The position numbers were made by a program, and so were the translations under genes. Below are positions 1,530 through 17,700 of a stretch of DNA of 28,152 nucleotides, in pieces (the first letter of the stretch is position 1; each line of letters begins with the position of its first letter). The notes beneath the pieces are model-generated. The model did no database searches, was not told the origin of the DNA, and was given only the letters and a program-made list of their open reading frames with translations. This stretch comes from a virus: IMG/VR virus record IMGVR_UViG_3300045303_000200, positions 1 through 28,152 of that record. One strand, given 5' to 3'.

Positions 1530-1973
1530 TCAATGCTCGTTGCCCTGACACCGCAGCCGATAAAACGTGCCCCCCATCGGGCTAGCGAGCCACTCACCGA
1601 CGCCGATAAACTGAATTCGCAGATCGGTCCAGACAACCGGGGGATCAAGCGAGGGAGTGTATTGCAGCACGACGTTGGTTGATGGCGTCCAGTTCAAGCG
1701 CACCGTCGGGCCAATGTGCGCCGTCAGAAGCGCCATGCCGCTCACGATCAGGTTTGTCCCGTAATAGTTCGTGTACCAATCCGGGTTGCTCACCAGCGGC
1801 TCAACCGTCTCAACAAAGTTTGTGCAATCGAAAACTATTCCCGTGATGCGCAGATCGGTATTCAGCGACATCACCTGGATGCACGGAACGTTGGTGTTGG
1901 TGACCTGAGCGCGAGTCCAATAGGTGGCGAGTAATAGACTCGCGAGAAGAAGCGTTTTCACTTCGCGATCCAT
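1530..1973 (-). CDS. Secreted protein coupled to the large YadA-like fibre
   Basis: The 147-residue product starts with a Sec signal (MDREVKTLLLASLLLATYW, probable cleavage after TRA before QVTN). The mature part is rich in Thr, Asn, Tyr and Trp, typical of small beta-sandwich surface proteins, and ends in a segment FIGVGEWLASPMGGTFYRLR. This ending resembles the tail of domains often seen at the ends of secreted Verrucomicrobia proteins. Its start lies 16 bases inside the fibre gene's 3' end, so translation is probably coupled. That makes a fibre partner, receptor-binding tip or export helper plausible. No enzymatic motif is seen. Confidence 0.75.
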   Translation of the reverse strand: MDREVKTLLLASLLLATYWTRAQVTNTNVPCIQVMSLNTDLRITGIVFDCTNFVETVEPLVSNPDWYTNYYGTNLIVSGMALLTAHIGPTVRLNWTPSTNVVLQYTPSLDPPVVWTDLRIQFIGVGEWLASPMGGTFYRLRCQGNEH

Positions 1974-4900: not shown

Positions 4901-5326
4901 GGTCCGCTGTGCGGTGCTCTCGACGGTGTAGGGCACCCGGACGGCGACTGCAGAAGTCGTTGAATTCGTCGAGTAGGTCACCGTGCCCCATCCCGCCGAA
5001 AGTGTGACCGTGACCGTTTGCCCGGGGAAGCTTTGCAGCGTGATGTTGCTCGGGGAGCTGCGCGAAAGGCTCAGGCTCGCGAAAGGATTGCCAGCGATGG
5101 CGCGAAAGAGGTTCGTTGCCGCTGCCGCCGCGCCGTTGGTGGTGGTCGCGATCTGTGTTGGGAGTGTGACGGCATTCGTCCACGTCCGCGTGTTGCCGTT
5201 CGCGACAATTGATTGCCCGTTTGTCGGGGGGGTCGTGATTGTAACCGTGGCCGTGGTGATGTCGAGGGCCAGCGCCGGGAGCGCCAGCGCCAAAAACATT
5301 CCGAGAATTATTCCAAAGCGTTTCAT
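1958..5326 (-). CDS. Large fibre/adhesin with YadA-head-like repeats and a Sec signal peptide
   Basis: The 1122-residue protein has a textbook signal peptide (MKRFGIILGMFLALALPALA, cut near residue 20). Residues 221-395 are about 14-residue repeats of the YadA/trimeric-autotransporter head type (SVALGLTAIAAG, SIAIGAGSVADG, AVALGSQATASN), closed by VLLGTSDQYVDIPGNLLVHG. A Gly-rich linker lies near 560-568. A second array of about 23-residue repeats spans roughly 600-780 (GSLALGYASGAD, GAFAYGWAANAG, GAFSLGNAQGIG). The C-terminus (LYSRTDGGAGTTLYVKESG, then GWIAK) is a common end motif of phage fibres. No autotransporter beta-barrel anchor is seen. The role is host binding, probably as a trimer. 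The ATG follows the preceding stop directly. Confidence 0.88.
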   Translation of the reverse strand: MKRFGIILGMFLALALPALALDITTATVTITTPPTNGQSIVANGNTRTWTNAVTLPTQIATTTNGAAAAATNLFRAIAGNPFASLSLSRSSPSNITLQSFPGQTVTVTLSAGWGTVTYSTNSTTSAVAVRVPYTVESTAQRTNVVSGIVAMVDSDSVTNAIRSNAPAMANFLAKGADQVVSGSNFFGNISGNVSNLNGGTWNNGILTNGQNYGNAFQPHSIGDRSVALGLTAIAAGLYGISIGYGTTSSNSSSIAIGAGSVADGPSSTVIGDNAQVHNSTNSTALGQSAFVAPGSLGAVALGSQATASNQYATAVGFLSYAGGRLSGAFGAGAQASNDYSFAVGPNSVASASNSYAMGTAAFASHPNTVVIGYGASSSRSNQVLLGTSDQYVDIPGNLLVHGNTSNLLAAGEANFPSGSDIAFGRFALTSLANGNNAGIAIGDNVFVEVSGPSGPFSVNGIAGGRNGKLLFLVNRTGQTMTLANQSGVEPTAANRIDTLLGGDLTNGNAGLIFIYSSSAARWLLLGGSSGTNSAGGTTSVVIAGAGIAVTTNSPNSYTVAATGGGGGSDTFWQTNASGVGGIEHSNMDSSFRIDAFNPGTFAGGRTNAGGTITSTESGSFSFGSSEGASSDLGAGGFGAIALGRSIDSGQIQSVGYGSLALGYASGADSVISSEQLGSIASGGALSAGKIYALSDGAFAYGWAANAGAIISDTSRGAFSLGNAQGIGSTITATGPGALVGGVATNGAIHSASGEAGFTWGKNVTNSGNRSFAFGRSFANTDDETFTVGWGGPALIITSNGLTGPQGVIGDWTLSPDGSATFAAGNIGFSAAGDITAVTFSGNSAYVGALTNAGVAANSLLKTDANQSEAAVGSFKNLYWSGTSLDFAPTNQAAHFALMGPTNGGPSIPTWRAVVGSDLSTASIDPNAGSGTNLTIFSSSVHTQAWNFGPITTESNALGSITFKGGNQTNTGSLLLSGTNFVDKLFLYPYDVSLMRLNSGTILVAGADGAGATNSMQMWECAASERFVRGGVTVIDNGNNHFGANATFTATVTGNKGQFTDTAWATNGFLYGTTRLQLVSGSGSPEGVVAAPVGSLYSRTDGGAGTTLYVKESGSANTGWIAK

Positions 5327-5977
5327 TTACGGGAGGTCTCCTATCACCGGATCTTCTTGGAGCGATCCGCCTTTGTTATAAACGGCAATCCATTTTGTGG
5401 GGTCATCGATGTCTTGGAAGTAAAGACTTCCGACAATCTTTCTCGTAATGAAACGCCCGTTGGCTTCGGAGAGGCTCAGTGCTGATTCCCCGTCGGGCGG
5501 CCCCGTCAAAGTGTCTTGGGTGATAACCTGGCCCTGGACTGAAACCCTCTTTTGGAGAATTCTCCACGGCTTGCCATTCTCATTTATCAGCGCCAGCTCG
5601 AACCAGGTCTCCGCGCTTTCGTTCTGTCCGATCAGCGCGGCGAGAGCAACTTGCGTCAGCGCAAATTCGGCGGTGAACGCTTGGTTGAGCAAATCCTTGT
5701 CCCAGGTGAATTGCGAGGCGTAGAGAATGTGATTGGCCAGCCCATCCTTTGGTCCAATGCCCGCCTTGAGGCTCAGGCTCGCGTTGTTCAGGAACAGATA
5801 CGGAGTGCCGCCGAAAGCACCGGCGCCCGGCCCGTCGTTGTTCCGCTGCAGTGGAACGATCTTGAACAGGGGAGAGTCGCCGAGAATCAGCGCTGGGAAA
5901 GGCGCGGGCGTGGCGTCGATTGGGGACGTGATGATCTGGTTATCATCTACATCGACGTAAATTGTCCGCTGTGCCAT
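5327..5977 (-). CDS. Putative tail-tip/baseplate protein upstream of the main fibre
   Basis: The 216-residue protein has no signal peptide and begins MAQRTIYVDVDDNQIITSP. It is mostly beta-type, with Trp/Tyr-containing strands (LYFQDIDDPTKWIAVYNKGG near the end). Its stop abuts the fibre start (TAA then ATG), so the two are co-translated. In siphophages the gene immediately before the fibre often encodes a baseplate or fibre-attachment protein, and that is the inferred role here. I recognise no family motif. Upstream, 40 bp separate it from the preceding gene, with no convincing hairpin. Confidence 0.75.
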   Translation of the reverse strand: MAQRTIYVDVDDNQIITSPIDATPAPFPALILGDSPLFKIVPLQRNNDGPGAGAFGGTPYLFLNNASLSLKAGIGPKDGLANHILYASQFTWDKDLLNQAFTAEFALTQVALAALIGQNESAETWFELALINENGKPWRILQKRVSVQGQVITQDTLTGPPDGESALSLSEANGRFITRKIVGSLYFQDIDDPTKWIAVYNKGGSLQEDPVIGDLP

Positions 5978-12506: not shown

Positions 12507-13205
12507 TCAATGCTGCTGCCGATTGAACTTCTCCGCACCGGGCTTCATCTCATCTTCGATGCGCTGAACCATTTGATTGTTCTCCCGCGCAAGCCCGCGC
12601 TCCAGCGCCGGATCGCCGACGCGATGAAAGCCGCCACGGTGTTCACTGCGAGCGGCGGCCGTATTTTCGATAGTGACTTGAAAGTTTCCAGGCGTGGCCA
12701 AATTGACGCTGCCTTTTGGCGCGCCTCTCACGTTGCGCTCTTCACCTCGGTTGTATTTCCCGCCGATCGCTGGCCCGAGCGCTTTCAAAACGCCAACCCA
12801 CCCGGCACGGATGAACCCGCCCGAGGCAATACGCCCCCGGACCATACTGTTTAGCTTCTTGGTCATCATCGCGCGCCAGCCTGCGAGGCTCAGAGATCGC
12901 CTCGCCCGCGCCCTTTGGTCTTTGGAGTAGCCGCGCCCAAGGTTCCGCTGGCCCACCCATCCCTTCGACGCCCGCTTTGCTGCAATCGCAAACGCGACGG
13001 GGATCGATCCGCGATCTGTGATTATCTCGCGCTCAAGTTCACTAACGATTTTATCGCCGTCGGTGCGCGGTGTTTCTTGGAGCGCGGCCAGGGCGACGAA
13101 GAAGGCGTGCCGGTTGATAGATTTTGGCCACGCCGTCGATTCGTAGTTGCCAAGCAACTCCTTCAGCGTCGAGTTGAACTGTTGCTGCGTAAATTCGAGA
13201 CTCAT
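12507..13205 (-). CDS. Putative neck/minor tail protein (gp10/gpZ-like position)
   Basis: The ATG shares bases with the upstream stop (TGATG), giving 232 residues. The protein is basic, with helices at the start (LEFTQQQFNSTLKELLGNYE) and a central Arg/Lys-rich part (ARARRSLSLAGWRAMMTKKL). A Gly-containing segment GFIRAGWVGVLKALGPAIGG recalls the small basic 'gp10-like' tail completion proteins of siphophages. The gene order (adaptor, this gene, terminator-like gene, tube) matches that role. Assignment is by position and general character. Confidence 0.66.
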   Translation of the reverse strand: MSLEFTQQQFNSTLKELLGNYESTAWPKSINRHAFFVALAALQETPRTDGDKIVSELEREIITDRGSIPVAFAIAAKRASKGWVGQRNLGRGYSKDQRARARRSLSLAGWRAMMTKKLNSMVRGRIASGGFIRAGWVGVLKALGPAIGGKYNRGEERNVRGAPKGSVNLATPGNFQVTIENTAAARSEHRGGFHRVGDPALERGLARENNQMVQRIEDEMKPGAEKFNRQQH

Positions 13206-13576
13206 CAACTCCCCGCCGCCGGATCTCTACAAACCAGCTTCAAATAATTCCCCGGCGTGCGCTGAACCAGTTCGATAACGAATTCGCGCTCGGGAGTGTT
13301 CGCGGGATCGTCGGTGAAAACAACGGTGTCCTTCAGTTGCGGGATCGGCCCTTCGTTAAATTCTGAGCGCAGGACCTGCAGCGTCAGTTCGTCCAGGGGG
13401 ATCTGCCCGCCCTGATTCAAATAGCTTTGTTCGTTCCAGTTGAAAATGCAGGGATAGCTTCCGTTCTTCCAACTGAACATCGGCGCGAACCCTTCAGCCG
13501 TATCGATGACGGCGTGCAGGGCTTCGGAGGCGCGCTCCATTTCGGAAGAGAGAAGGGAGTTGAAGCGAGTTGGCAT
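13205..13576 (-). CDS. Putative head-tail adaptor protein
   Basis: The 123-residue protein begins MPTRFNSLLSSEMERASEAL and has a beta-rich rest, including PIPQLKDTVVFTDDP and a C-terminal strand YLKLVCRDP. The size and the place, first among the connector genes and before the neck-like gene, fit a head-tail attachment or stopper protein (lambda gpFII slot). There is no strong sequence signature. The stop overlaps the next start (TGATG), so translation is coupled. It directly follows the 597-residue fibre gene with only three bases between that gene's stop and this ATG. Confidence 0.66.
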   Translation of the reverse strand: MPTRFNSLLSSEMERASEALHAVIDTAEGFAPMFSWKNGSYPCIFNWNEQSYLNQGGQIPLDELTLQVLRSEFNEGPIPQLKDTVVFTDDPANTPEREFVIELVQRTPGNYLKLVCRDPAAGS

Positions 13577-13579
13577 TAC

Positions 13580-15373
13580 TCATTGAACCCTTCGCGCGGT
13601 TATTGATCCGTATGCTGAGACGGTCCCGACCGAGAATGTCGCTTTAGCAACGAGGTAAATCGTAGTCGTGCCGCTCAACGAAAGTCGCTTGCTCGGGAGC
13701 GTCACTGAATCCTTGGCACTCAGGCCGATTACGCCCACACCCGCGCCCGAATAAACCTCCGAGCCGTCCGTCGGGATTGTCGCTGGTGTGCTCGTGACGC
13801 CGCCGACTATCTCGGTTACTGTTACCCCGCCCTCGGAATAGTTGACGTTCCCCCGCACGTCCCAATCACCCGCTGTGAGTGAAATGCTGGTCACGTTCGA
13901 TACGGTTGCGGTGGTCAGCGCAATGGCTGAACCAAGCGCAACAAGTGAAGATGCGTATTCGCCAAGTCCACCTGCCGGAGCATTGCCGTTGCTGGTTTGT
14001 GAAATGAACCCTCCAGTGGCGGTAACGGATTGCGGAAACGTTCCCCCGCTCGCATCCAGCGTCAATCGGAGAGCGCTGTTCTGATAGAACACTAACGGAA
14101 CGTTATCATACTGAAAAAGACCCGCTGCGCTGTTACCAGATCGGTTTCCTGATGTAGTTGAGTTGGCAAAAAGTTCTAAGTCATGGCCCCCGTTTGCAGT
14201 GACCGTAATTATCGCTTTTCCAGAACTACTTGCACTGCTGTTCCTTGCTTGGAATTGAACATTTTGATTATTGGCTGAATTGTCTGAGCGAATTAAGCCT
14301 GTCGCATTTAATGTCGAGACTTGGGTGTTGCCAGCGTTTGTCACCCCTCCGGTTTGCCCGTTCTGCGTGATGTTCGCCGCTGCGTTGGTAGGCCCTAAAG
14401 TAAAAATCCCATTCGTAGTCTGCGCCCAATTACCCGTCGCGTAGTTGGTTTCAATCCTGCCGCCTGTGTGGACCGCTCCTGAGACATTTGTGCTCGACCC
14501 CGCAAACGTCGCTCCGGTAATCACTTGGTTTGTGCTGGTCTGGGTTGTGTTGGCGTTGGTCAGGGGCGCTGTGGCCAAAGCGGCAATCGGAATGTTGGTT
14601 AGAGCATTTCCGTTAAACGTGCGATGTCTGGAAGCTGGACTCCCCGAAGAAATCAAAAGCCAGCCAGCCTCGTTTGTGGTGTAATCGAACAGCGTCCCGA
14701 TTGGGATCTGGCTACCGCTCGACAAATTGCTCGCTGTCAAGGTGGTCAGGCCGGAGCCATCCCCGGCAAACACGTTGGCCGCGTTGGTGAGACGCAGGGC
14801 GCGAGTGTCGTTAGTCGCAATGTTCGTGGGCAAACCCGTCAGCCCGCTCCCATCTCCAACGAAAGCGGTAGCGGTTACGATGCCAAAACCATCAATATTA
14901 AAAATGGGTATTCCTATAGTATTGGCCATCGAAAGATAGGTTGTTGCATCGTTTCCTTCGCTATAATATTCCAATCCGCGACTCCCGTTCGTGTTGTAGA
15001 AACCTCCTGCAATGAAACTCTCATCTCCAAAAACAGAGAAACTTCTAGCTCCAAAAGTCATTCTGAGGATGTCCAATGGGGTCGTTGGTGAAATAACATT
15101 CCCGGGGACTATATCAGGGGGAAAGTTGGTCCATACCTGCGAGCCGCCGCCGATGCCGGTTAGAGCACTGCCGTCGCCCGCAAACACGTTTGCAGAATTG
15201 GTGAGACGTAGAGCGCGGGTGTCGTTGGTTAGCGCGAGAGTGCCGCCATCCGAAAGCCCCGCGATGGTCGTAGCGCCAGAGCCGCCGCCAGCAGCAGGCG
15301 ACGGCAACACCGTCAGTTGCGCATAACCGCACTGCGCCAGCATGCAAAGCAGGGGGGCGAGAATCTTTTTCAT
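13580..15373 (-). CDS. Fibre-like protein with GDGSGLT repeats and a Sec signal peptide
   Basis: The ATG at 15373 overlaps the upstream stop (ATGA) and gives 597 residues; extending further would enter the neighbouring gene. A signal peptide is clear (MKKILAPLLCMLAQCGYA, cut before QLTV). Repeats of the type FAGDGSGLT occur near residues 63-73, 171-181 and 202-212, with a weaker FNGNALTNI near 252. Around two of them the longer block TNDTRALRLTN-[SA]-ANVFAGDGS is duplicated. The rest is Thr/Asn/Gly-rich and beta-type. Such repeats mark tail or surface fibres in Verrucomicrobia-like phages. The place between capsid and connector genes is unusual for a tail fibre. Confidence 0.82.
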   Translation of the reverse strand: MKKILAPLLCMLAQCGYAQLTVLPSPAAGGGSGATTIAGLSDGGTLALTNDTRALRLTNSANVFAGDGSALTGIGGGSQVWTNFPPDIVPGNVISPTTPLDILRMTFGARSFSVFGDESFIAGGFYNTNGSRGLEYYSEGNDATTYLSMANTIGIPIFNIDGFGIVTATAFVGDGSGLTGLPTNIATNDTRALRLTNAANVFAGDGSGLTTLTASNLSSGSQIPIGTLFDYTTNEAGWLLISSGSPASRHRTFNGNALTNIPIAALATAPLTNANTTQTSTNQVITGATFAGSSTNVSGAVHTGGRIETNYATGNWAQTTNGIFTLGPTNAAANITQNGQTGGVTNAGNTQVSTLNATGLIRSDNSANNQNVQFQARNSSASSSGKAIITVTANGGHDLELFANSTTSGNRSGNSAAGLFQYDNVPLVFYQNSALRLTLDASGGTFPQSVTATGGFISQTSNGNAPAGGLGEYASSLVALGSAIALTTATVSNVTSISLTAGDWDVRGNVNYSEGGVTVTEIVGGVTSTPATIPTDGSEVYSGAGVGVIGLSAKDSVTLPSKRLSLSGTTTIYLVAKATFSVGTVSAYGSITARRVQ

Positions 15374-15801
15374 TGGCGCGACCCGAGATACAGAATTGTG
15401 TTGGTCGATCCGCCAGCCGTGGTCTGCCCGAAGGTTGCTCGCAGATAACTGAACCGATAACCGATCATCACAATCCCGTTCGTCGCCGACGCGCTCACCG
15501 AGTTTGTAGCGAGCGGAATCCAACTGAGCCCGTCGAGGCTTGCGGAAATGATGTTGCTGCACGCGTTGGTGCAAATCGTCACGATCTGGAATGTGTGAGT
15601 TGAGGCGCTTTCGAGAGGCCACGATGCGCTCGTTTTATTCGAGGTCGTAGTCGAAAGGAAAGTCATCGGCCCAATAGTGTTCGCCGCATTGCCGGGCGGG
15701 AAGTTGGTAGCAGAAATCGGATCTGGCAGCGCCAGTCCAACGAGGATCGAAAGCAGCGCCAGAAGTCCAGCGATTGAAAGGCTAATTTTTTTGATGCTCA
15801 T
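15370..15801 (-). CDS. Exported or membrane-anchored small beta protein
   Basis: The ATG at 15801 gives 143 residues. The N-terminus has a long hydrophobic segment (ISLSIAGLLALLSILVGLAL, residues 6-25) after MSIKK. A plausible signal-peptidase site follows at PISA before TNFP; if uncut it would be a membrane anchor. The mature part is Ser/Thr-rich with strands such as HTFQIVTICTNACSNIISAS and a SLDGLSWIPL segment, like small carbohydrate-binding or lectin-type beta sandwiches, though no family is assigned. It is coupled by ATGA to the 597-residue fibre gene, so the two products may work together. Confidence 0.72.
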   Translation of the reverse strand: MSIKKISLSIAGLLALLSILVGLALPDPISATNFPPGNAANTIGPMTFLSTTTSNKTSASWPLESASTHTFQIVTICTNACSNIISASLDGLSWIPLATNSVSASATNGIVMIGYRFSYLRATFGQTTAGGSTNTILYLGSRQ

Positions 15802-15806
15802 ATAAC

Positions 15807-16193
15807 TTACGGCGCGCCAATCGCAATCCACCGGATCGAAGCGTTGGTTTGTGCGGCCCCAAAAATAACGTTGCTGGTCGTGACGGTGATCAAGTGCGGA
15901 AGATCGTTGGTGCCAGCGGCTACAGTGATCACCGGCGCGGAACTGAAGGCCGTCGCGAAAGTATTCGTCACTTTGAAGTTGTTCCCATTGGCAGCCGTCC
16001 CGAATTGCAGTACGGCCAGCTTGCCCAGTTGCGCGTTGCTCAGCGTCCAGACCGAGTCCTCGTCTTTGATGGACGATTGCGCGTCAAACTTCAGCGTCGT
16101 CCCGTTGCGATAGCGGATTGATCGGCCCGAAAGGTCTTGGGCGATTGCGGCCGCAGCCACGCAGACCGCCAGCAGACAAAAAATAATCTTCAT
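15807..16193 (-). CDS. Secreted small protein with an H-type-lectin-like C-terminal pattern
   Basis: The ATG at 16193 gives 128 residues, with a clear Sec signal (MKIIFCLLAVCVAAAAIA, cut before QDLS). The C-terminal half contains a run (FATAFSSAPVITVAAG, later SIRWIAIG) that resembles the H-type lectin/receptor-binding fold of phage fibre tips, where 'FSxxPxVxVT ... W.AIG' is typical. This is a resemblance only. It is the first gene after the terminator-like hairpin at 16201-16239 and begins a run of three exported products inside the head region. Confidence 0.72.
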   Translation of the reverse strand: MKIIFCLLAVCVAAAAIAQDLSGRSIRYRNGTTLKFDAQSSIKDEDSVWTLSNAQLGKLAVLQFGTAANGNNFKVTNTFATAFSSAPVITVAAGTNDLPHLITVTTSNVIFGAAQTNASIRWIAIGAP

Positions 16194-16263: not shown

Positions 16264-16683
16264 CTAGAGCAAAATCGAATAGGTCACCGATGAACCGCTC
16301 AGCGTGTCGGTTGCCCCCGTGGTCTGATAAAATCCGATAAACCGCTTCGTGCCAATCGGCAGCTTGAAGCGCCAAACGCTCCCGAGCGATCCGGTTGAGA
16401 CGACGCCGATTGCATCCACCGTGATTGTCGCTACCGGAGCAACCGGCGCGATCACTGTGGTCGTGTCCGCGTGATAAAGCGTGATGTTGATGTGATTGCC
16501 TGCCGTGACGTGCGCGGCGATGGCCGGGATCGAAATTTCGACTGTGATTTCCTCGGGACGAAACGGGCCGACGCCAAGGTCAATCGTGTCGGTCGTGTTG
16601 TTCGAGCTGGTCGCCGGAAGCGCCTTGGTGATCGTCAGCGCCGAGTCTCGCAGTAACCGCGTATTCAAAACTTGTGTTGCCAT
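16264..16683 (-). CDS. Capsid cement/decoration protein (Bbp16-like)
   Basis: The 139-residue protein is beta-rich with Thr/Ala-heavy strands. Its start is MATQVLNTRLLRDSALTITK, and its end is RFIGFYQTTGATDTLSGSSV. This resembles capsid cement proteins of the Bbp16 type in length and in the '..RFxGxYxxxx' ending, and it follows the major capsid gene as those do. The leader is AT-rich (ACAAATTTT then ATG) with no visible Shine-Dalgarno. It is probably expressed at a high level together with the capsid protein. Confidence 0.7.
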   Translation of the reverse strand: MATQVLNTRLLRDSALTITKALPATSSNNTTDTIDLGVGPFRPEEITVEISIPAIAAHVTAGNHINITLYHADTTTVIAPVAPVATITVDAIGVVSTGSLGSVWRFKLPIGTKRFIGFYQTTGATDTLSGSSVTYSILL

Positions 16684-16707: not shown

Positions 16708-17700
16708 TTAGAACGGTGTGCCCGCCGCGGTCGCCGTCTCGGTGTCGAGGATCGAATCCGTCACATAGAGCGGGATGCCGTTGGACTCGGTAGGAGTCGG
16801 CGGGAATTGCAGCGCCATTGAAGCGGTGATACCGCTTTTACCTGTGGCGGTGTAAACAGGGGCGCGGCTGGTCTGCAGGGCGAGCCGTTGCGCGCGCGTG
16901 CAGAACAAGTGAGTCGGACGGACACCGACCGGGAACTTCGCCAGGGCGTTTGCGACGATAGCGTCAGTCAGTCCAGTGTTCGAAGCCACGCCGGGATCCG
17001 GCGAGACCAAATTTTTGATTCGGCAGGCGCTCTTGGTGTAGTTGAACGATAGGCCGACGTAGCCAGAGAGATTGTTCACGAAAGCGCGATACTGAGAATT
17101 GGTCGCAACGATGTATTGCGGCTGCCATTGTTTCATTTGCAGCCCTTGATTGTTCCCGTAGATGAACTCCACGCAGTCGGGAGCGTTCACTACGAGCCAG
17201 GCGCTTGAGGTTGTGGCGCCCAAAGAGCCGGTCGCGTTCGCGGTGGTTTCCATCGTGGCCGGATCGTAAAGGTGAACTAGGCCGGCAAAGCCGAAATCGG
17301 TAAGTGAGGGGTTGCCGTAATAGACCTGGCTGCCGAGCATGATCAGTTTCGCTTTGGCAACGCCGGTCGCTTCATTGGCCAGCACCCACTCAGCACCAAA
17401 CTCCGAGGCGTCGAGCACCATTTCATCGACGCGCATTTGAGCGTCGAGGAAGAAAGCCTGATTAACGCGCTGGTCCCATTTGCTCACCATGACCGGCGAG
17501 CCGGTATTCGCGGCGCGGAAAGCGGGAGTTGCGGGCAGGGCAGTGCGGACCAAAGCATTGTAGGTCGTGCCCTTGATCGAGCGTCCGCCCAGGACATCGA
17601 CCTCGGGTGCGAACGTGCGGATTTCCTCGACGATGCCGACGGCCTGGTCGGTGCCGTTTTGCTTCGTGATGTCGAGCAGAGTTAAAAATGCGTCAGCCAT
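16708..17700 (-). CDS. Major capsid protein
   Basis: The 330-residue protein matches the pattern of tailed-phage coat proteins that begin with an 'AF-LTLLDI-KQNG' helix, followed by an E-loop-like IKGTTYNALVRTALPATPAF and a CVEFIYGNNQG core. Length and place (after scaffold-like genes, before a cement protein) agree. The HK97 fold is expected for the family, not demonstrated here. The leader is CAAAATTTT directly after the upstream stop, with no Shine-Dalgarno. Its C-terminus TATAAGTPF ends at 16708. Confidence 0.86.
   Translation of the reverse strand: MADAFLTLLDITKQNGTDQAVGIVEEIRTFAPEVDVLGGRSIKGTTYNALVRTALPATPAFRAANTGSPVMVSKWDQRVNQAFFLDAQMRVDEMVLDASEFGAEWVLANEATGVAKAKLIMLGSQVYYGNPSLTDFGFAGLVHLYDPATMETTANATGSLGATTSSAWLVVNAPDCVEFIYGNNQGLQMKQWQPQYIVATNSQYRAFVNNLSGYVGLSFNYTKSACRIKNLVSPDPGVASNTGLTDAIVANALAKFPVGVRPTHLFCTRAQRLALQTSRAPVYTATGKSGITASMALQFPPTPTESNGIPLYVTDSILDTETATAAGTPF

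Follow-up and report, generated by a model that had tools for sequence, protein, structure and literature searches.

The window, which is the whole 28,152-base linear virus record analysed here, carries three consecutive genes (P1, P2 and P3) with predicted Sec export signals, placed between a cement-like gene and the connector region. By the sequence criteria used, these signals are confirmed as real, conserved and confined to fibre and decoration genes, and export of the encoded proteins is well supported. The trait is wider than the initial annotation had described, as it was also found in the distal fibres behind the tail module and throughout the clade.

On the minus strand, the genes for terminase, portal, protease, scaffold-like proteins, capsid protein and cement-like protein are followed by P1-P3, connector-region genes, a tape-measure-like protein, tail genes, a 1122-aa fibre and small genes (Table 1). 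This gene order is the usual one. At the end of the record, a small membrane protein is encoded at 930-1205; another protein (about 1-431), hydrophobic at its N-terminus, runs off the contig end; positions 1-1205 are probably the lysis region. The coordinates and translations given initially for the three genes at 13580-16193 are correct. Coupling of the genes by ATGA was observed in the case of P2 and P3, which overlap, but not in the case of P1 and P2, which lie 5 bases apart. The cassette had been placed between capsid cement and a head-tail adaptor. It does lie between the cement-like gene, found at the same location in all relatives, and the connector genes, but PHROGs does not identify the 123-aa downstream gene as an adaptor, and this gene had no family match in Pfam or PHROGs. 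The gene at the corresponding position in the distant relative L048 matched phrog_195 (head-tail adaptor, 1e-14).

Table 1. Position and properties of the window genes discussed in the text. All signal peptides are predicted.
Feature	Position	Strand	Remarks
Major capsid protein	16708..17700	-	no signal; Pfam GP7 1e-16; basis of the tree
Cement-like protein	16264..16683	-	no signal; upstream of the cassette; phrog_427 E 0.001, function unknown
P1, 128 aa	15807..16193	-	signal peptide about 16140-16193; conserved 'RxIRYRxG...DxxSxIKDEDxxWT' module and C-terminal Gp53-like fibre-tip region
P2, 143 aa	15370..15801	-	signal peptide about 15709-15801, then beta-sandwich decoration-like domain
P3, 597 aa	13580..15373	-	signal peptide about 15320-15373; C-terminal ~145-aa fibre tip about 13583-14029
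Gene downstream of the cassette, connector region	13205..13576	-	no signal; conserved in relatives
216-aa tail protein just before the signal-bearing fibre	5327..5977	-	no signal; conserved, same position in L035, L036 and L040
Distal fibre, 1122 aa	1958..5326	-	signal peptide about 5267-5326; YadA-head repeats
147-aa protein after the distal fibre	1530..1973	-	weaker-scoring signal (3.73)

P3 was described initially as a 597-residue fibre with GDGSGLT repeats, and the comparison bears this out. It contains the motifs GDGSALTGI, GDGSGLTGL and GDGSGLTTL, it matched phrog_11393 (tail fibre) with an E value of 3e-10, and its C-terminal ~145 residues are 34-40% identical to podophage tail fibres. 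On the basis of this family match and of a tip related to podophage fibre tips, P3 is classified as a fibre. The combination of fibre-type repeats with a known phage receptor-binding tip was thus found in P3 and, weakly, in P1, which matched Pfam PF21882 with an E value of 0.005 (below the cut-off) and phrog_1396 (tail fibre) with an E value of 0.004. The structure model of P1 (pLDDT 43) was too poor for use. P2, which matched phrog_16217 (E 9e-6), is the most widely retained gene of the cassette among the relatives compared. It was modelled as a beta-sandwich (pLDDT 80), and its fold matched XepA (Z 10.6), YomS (Z 10.3), the BPP-1 cement protein (Z 9.2) and the KHP40 cement protein (Z 7.9). 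The matches to the Bdellovibrio structures 8okh and 8ok3 (Bd1399 and Bd2133) had Z scores of 8.8 and 7.5, which are within the common range. Because this fold is common, its likeness to cement proteins is no proof of decoration.

The signals were called with a home-made n/h/c-region scorer, and not with SignalP; the scorer accepts any start codon that falls in the opening third of a gene, to a maximum of 120 codons. The predicted signals are MKIIFCLLAVCVAAAAIA for P1, MSIKKISLSIAGLLALLSILVGLALPDPISA for P2 and MKKILAPLLCMLAQCGYA for P3, with cleavage in front of QDLSG, TNFPP and QLTVL, respectively. All three have the layout of a classical Sec signal: the start is short and basic, the core hydrophobic and the cleavage site of the AXA type. 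A basic n-region, a hydrophobic core and small residues at -3 and -1, as expected for Sec and SPase I, were seen in P1, P2, P3, the 1122-aa fibre and the 147-aa protein. The clear N-terminal signals reported initially for all three genes were thus recovered. At the threshold of 4.0 the scorer misses some signals, namely those of P3 (3.97, just below it) and of the 147-aa protein (3.73), the lowest among the five signal-bearing proteins of the window, and that of the L044 P2, which starts at 5929 as read by eye and was scored from incorrect coordinates.

In nine related records, 32 of the 36 fibre or decoration genes and 2 of the 91 core genes scored at the threshold of 4.0 (Fisher p about 3e-23, calculated from related, hence not independent, genomes and from classes assigned after the sequences had been seen). 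Lowering the threshold to 3.5 gave 35/36 and 10/91, respectively. The classes were set by position: fibre or decoration genes were those in the cement-connector interval and those beyond the final tail gene, and a single additional gene of L003 was counted with them. The enrichment of signals in this class is more than chance.

The comparison of gene order showed that relatives with capsid proteins about 68-80% identical to that of the window have signal-bearing genes immediately behind the cement gene, numbering three in L002 and L004, two in L003, L016 and L018, and one in L006, L009 and L014. Two distant relatives, L044 and L048, still have a signal-bearing P2-type gene there. Their capsid proteins share about 39% identity, and the capsid protein of L044 is about as similar (39%) to that of the window. 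In the case of P2, the window and L002 share 21% identity in the signal and 68% in the mature protein. The signal drifts yet stays hydrophobic, and the mature start, [TS]xFP....NTIN, comes after Ala or Gly in most members. This drift in front of a retained mature start is the pattern expected of functional signal peptides. In L010 (11490-11730), the P2 signal is intact and the frame behind it is broken, by sequencing error or decay. An extra signal-bearing 134-aa gene lies amid the connector genes of L003 (13911-14315). A search of viral contigs with the single P2 protein found no relative, whereas a search with the P2 alignment did; tblastn of P1, P2 and one signal-bearing distal fibre against isolate phages gave no match.

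Several relatives have, immediately behind their cement or P2 genes, genes for FkbM-type methyltransferases or glycosyltransferase-like proteins (L044:7088-9613 and L048:6199-7515 by Pfam; L060:10590-11912 by eye). Their products might modify exported proteins or the host surface.

The large genes behind the last tail gene also bear signals. In the window these encode the 1122-aa and 147-aa proteins, and in relatives the proteins are of 1083 and 262 aa (L034), 1699 aa (L035), 330, 242, 437 and 170 aa (L036), 867, 955 and about 480 aa (L038), 533, 279, 1112 and 158 aa (L040) and 1025 aa (L048). YadA-head repeats are found among them, as are a GH43-like region and a Melibiase_C domain. The last two occur in the signal-bearing distal fibres L040:7073-10411 and L035:4539-9638, which are possible polysaccharide-degrading spikes. 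Between the 1122-aa fibre and L035:4539-9638, the signal is 68% identical and the body 36%. The distal-fibre signal of L048 (8394-11471) contains LASC, a possible lipobox, and this protein may be lipid-anchored instead of cleaved by SPase I. Pfam scans of the 1122-aa and L035 fibres found head repeats and no YadA C-terminal outer-membrane anchor; a trimeric autotransporter adhesin of the YadA type is therefore disfavoured for the scanned fibres. A scan of the module ends revealed no large unsignalled fibre-type gene able to be the sole receptor-binding protein. The N-terminus of the 216-aa tail protein shows a weak likeness (E 0.005) to an unsignalled tail fibre of Verrucomicrobia phage P8625, and the protein is a possible docking candidate for the signal-bearing fibre, to be taken as a lead only. 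P1-type modules are present in both structural clusters (e.g., in L036). The P1 relative L003:12095-12808 contains the TATVTVTATPTNGQT domain, with which the distal fibres start in the window and in L035, and this indicates that modules are exchanged between the clusters.

A broader search with the capsid protein yielded 80 loci. Connector genes usually adjoin the cement gene directly in the 16 outgroup loci, where a signal was scored, weakly, for 1 of the 159 downstream genes; these loci extend only about 9 kb past the capsid gene, so the outermost distal fibres of the outgroup may be unseen. In a quick capsid tree with long branches, a single branch (SH-aLRT 96) separates the rows with signals from those without, which corresponds to one change. 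On this tree, signals on fibre and decoration genes are a clade-wide trait. L051, L060, L072 and L099 have no cement-side gene, but they have signal-bearing genes further on.

These little-known phages are from soil, and Verrucomicrobia are their likely hosts. The only isolate match of the portal was phage P8625 (24% identity, 2e-23), and the best isolate match of the capsid protein was Akkermansia phage Chantilly (32%). A host search of genome contigs with the capsid and terminase alignments gave no match. No signals were seen on the P8625 fibres, and its authors' SignalP run found no signal peptides in that genome (PMC4642752). In Chantilly, the genes that come behind a cement-like gene bear no signals. 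Since these two Verrucomicrobia-infecting isolates do without such signals, the signals are not required by the host.

Tailed-phage heads and tails are assembled in the cytoplasm, and in these phages they would be built there from proteins in which no signals are seen. We propose, at roughly even chances, that Sec exports the adhesive parts (capsid decoration, head fibre and tail fibres) and that these, once processed, join the cytoplasm-assembled particles at or after lysis. P1, P2, P3 and the distal fibres, with their predicted cleavable signals, would be processed on export, and would collect and fold in the periplasm. When the membranes open at lysis, P1-P3 would dock to the finished capsid and the distal fibres to the tail tip. 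A periplasmic pool would be diluted at lysis, so the attachment would need to be tight or fast. Speculatively, keeping adhesins out of the cytoplasm might shield them from intracellular ligands or allow folding and processing in the periplasm. That a whole tailed-phage lineage uses such two-compartment assembly, with Sec-exported decorations, head fibres and tail fibres joined outside the cytoplasm at lysis, is a tentative proposal, to which we give slightly less than an even chance.

The initial annotation suggested either adhesins sent to the host surface or a virion surface layer. The conserved, class-restricted signals uphold the common part of this reading, i.e., that the proteins are sent outside the cytoplasm, while the sequence is compatible with both destinations. 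We infer that the exported proteins join the virion, which appears likelier than a host-surface role, because the C-termini are of the fibre type without a surface anchor, the predicted P2 fold is cement-like and the same rule applies to the distal fibres. The proteins might instead be exported without becoming virion parts and act in the periplasm, on the outer surface or in the medium, e.g., mask receptors against superinfection, stick cells together or degrade polysaccharide. Sec signals are the normal route for phage proteins of this kind, such as the Sec-signalled Lom of lambda (PMC12309495) and the exported product of phage P1312 that was proposed to block superinfection (PMC4569894). 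The glycosidase-like regions of some distal proteins (L040, L035) also fit such a role, but enzyme domains are equally normal in tail spikes. Moreover, each genome encodes several different families in two structural clusters with fibre-tip C-termini, the scanned fibres lack the YadA anchor and no other large fibre candidate was seen. We regard this explanation, the main alternative, as rather unlikely, though of real weight.

It is improbable that the hydrophobic N-terminus stays uncleaved and serves as a membrane anchor or docking peptide, at the inner membrane or on the particle, with no release into the periplasm. The capsids of some phages do assemble at the inner membrane, and the hydrophobic stretch of P2 in the window, L002 and L004 is long, as in a membrane anchor. 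However, small cleavage-site residues are retained despite the drift of the signal, the conserved mature start follows immediately, and the signals of P1 and P3 are short and typical. We assign a very small probability to mis-set starts or to functionless signals inherited from captured bacterial surface genes. The proteins do contain adhesin modules of host type, namely YadA heads and GDGSGLT repeats, and the fibre bodies are mosaic, as a relic would have it, but the signals stay in frame across deep divergence and different gene families, where relics would decay. According to the initial annotation, a mis-set start would show in homologues lacking the N-terminal segment; close relatives have it, and P2 has no ATG in the stretch that separates the signal from the conserved mature start. 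Both readings are disfavoured, and largely refuted, by this deep in-frame conservation.

The textbook view is that tailed phages are assembled entirely in the cytoplasm and export nothing but proteins for lysis and exclusion. If the addition of exported parts to the virion is true, a lineage with Sec-signalled adhesive outer parts would break this rule, and a virion would have a new route to acquire receptor-binding parts. It would also bear on how phages and bacterial surface proteins exchange fibre modules. The virion genes of uncultured phages deserve a search for signal peptides, as such proteins could there pass for cargo. Searches of open-access papers brought up no tailed phage with Sec signals on its virion fibres, nor a tailed-phage lineage with signals on fibre and decoration genes, and, to our knowledge, no tailed phage adds Sec-exported fibres to its particle.

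Phages export lysis and exclusion proteins, and filamentous phages bear signals on their coat proteins. Lom, spanins and Sec-exported lysins of tailed phages use the host Sec pathway as predicted for P1-P3, but they serve lysis or exclusion and not as fibres or decoration. Phage P8625 has a similar module order and a tail fibre with a (weakly) similar N-terminal motif; unlike in the window, no decoration cassette was seen. Bd1399 and Bd2133, which we take to be phage-fibre-like bacterial proteins used outside the cytoplasm, are cellular proteins and not phage genes, and their likeness to P2 may be the common sandwich only. XepA and YomS of Bacillus subtilis prophages are the closest to P2 in fold, with about 10% identity. 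XepA is an exported phage protein for which its authors considered capsid binding feasible (PMC6834076). Unlike P2, both belong to the lytic cassette of a Gram-positive host; their family combines this fold with a pentameric disc, and P2 was compared as a fold only. The genes of capsid decoration proteins and head fibres (SPP1 gp12, phi29 gp8.5, T4 Hoc) and of the BPP-1 and KHP40 cement proteins, the latter with a fold resembling that predicted for P2, adjoin the capsid gene, as here. Proteins of the SPP1 gp12, phi29 gp8.5 and T4 Hoc type can join finished capsids; all these decoration, head-fibre and cement proteins are made in the cytoplasm and have no signals, unlike P1-P3. In the case of P3, the tip is 34-40% identical to those of the podophage tail fibres of Klebsiella Kp2, Pectobacterium PPWS1 and Dickeya BF25/12 and of a structural protein of Xanthomonas phage PBR31. 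These are presumably ordinary tail fibres, and P3 differs from the podophage fibres by its Sec signal and its location between the capsid and connector genes.
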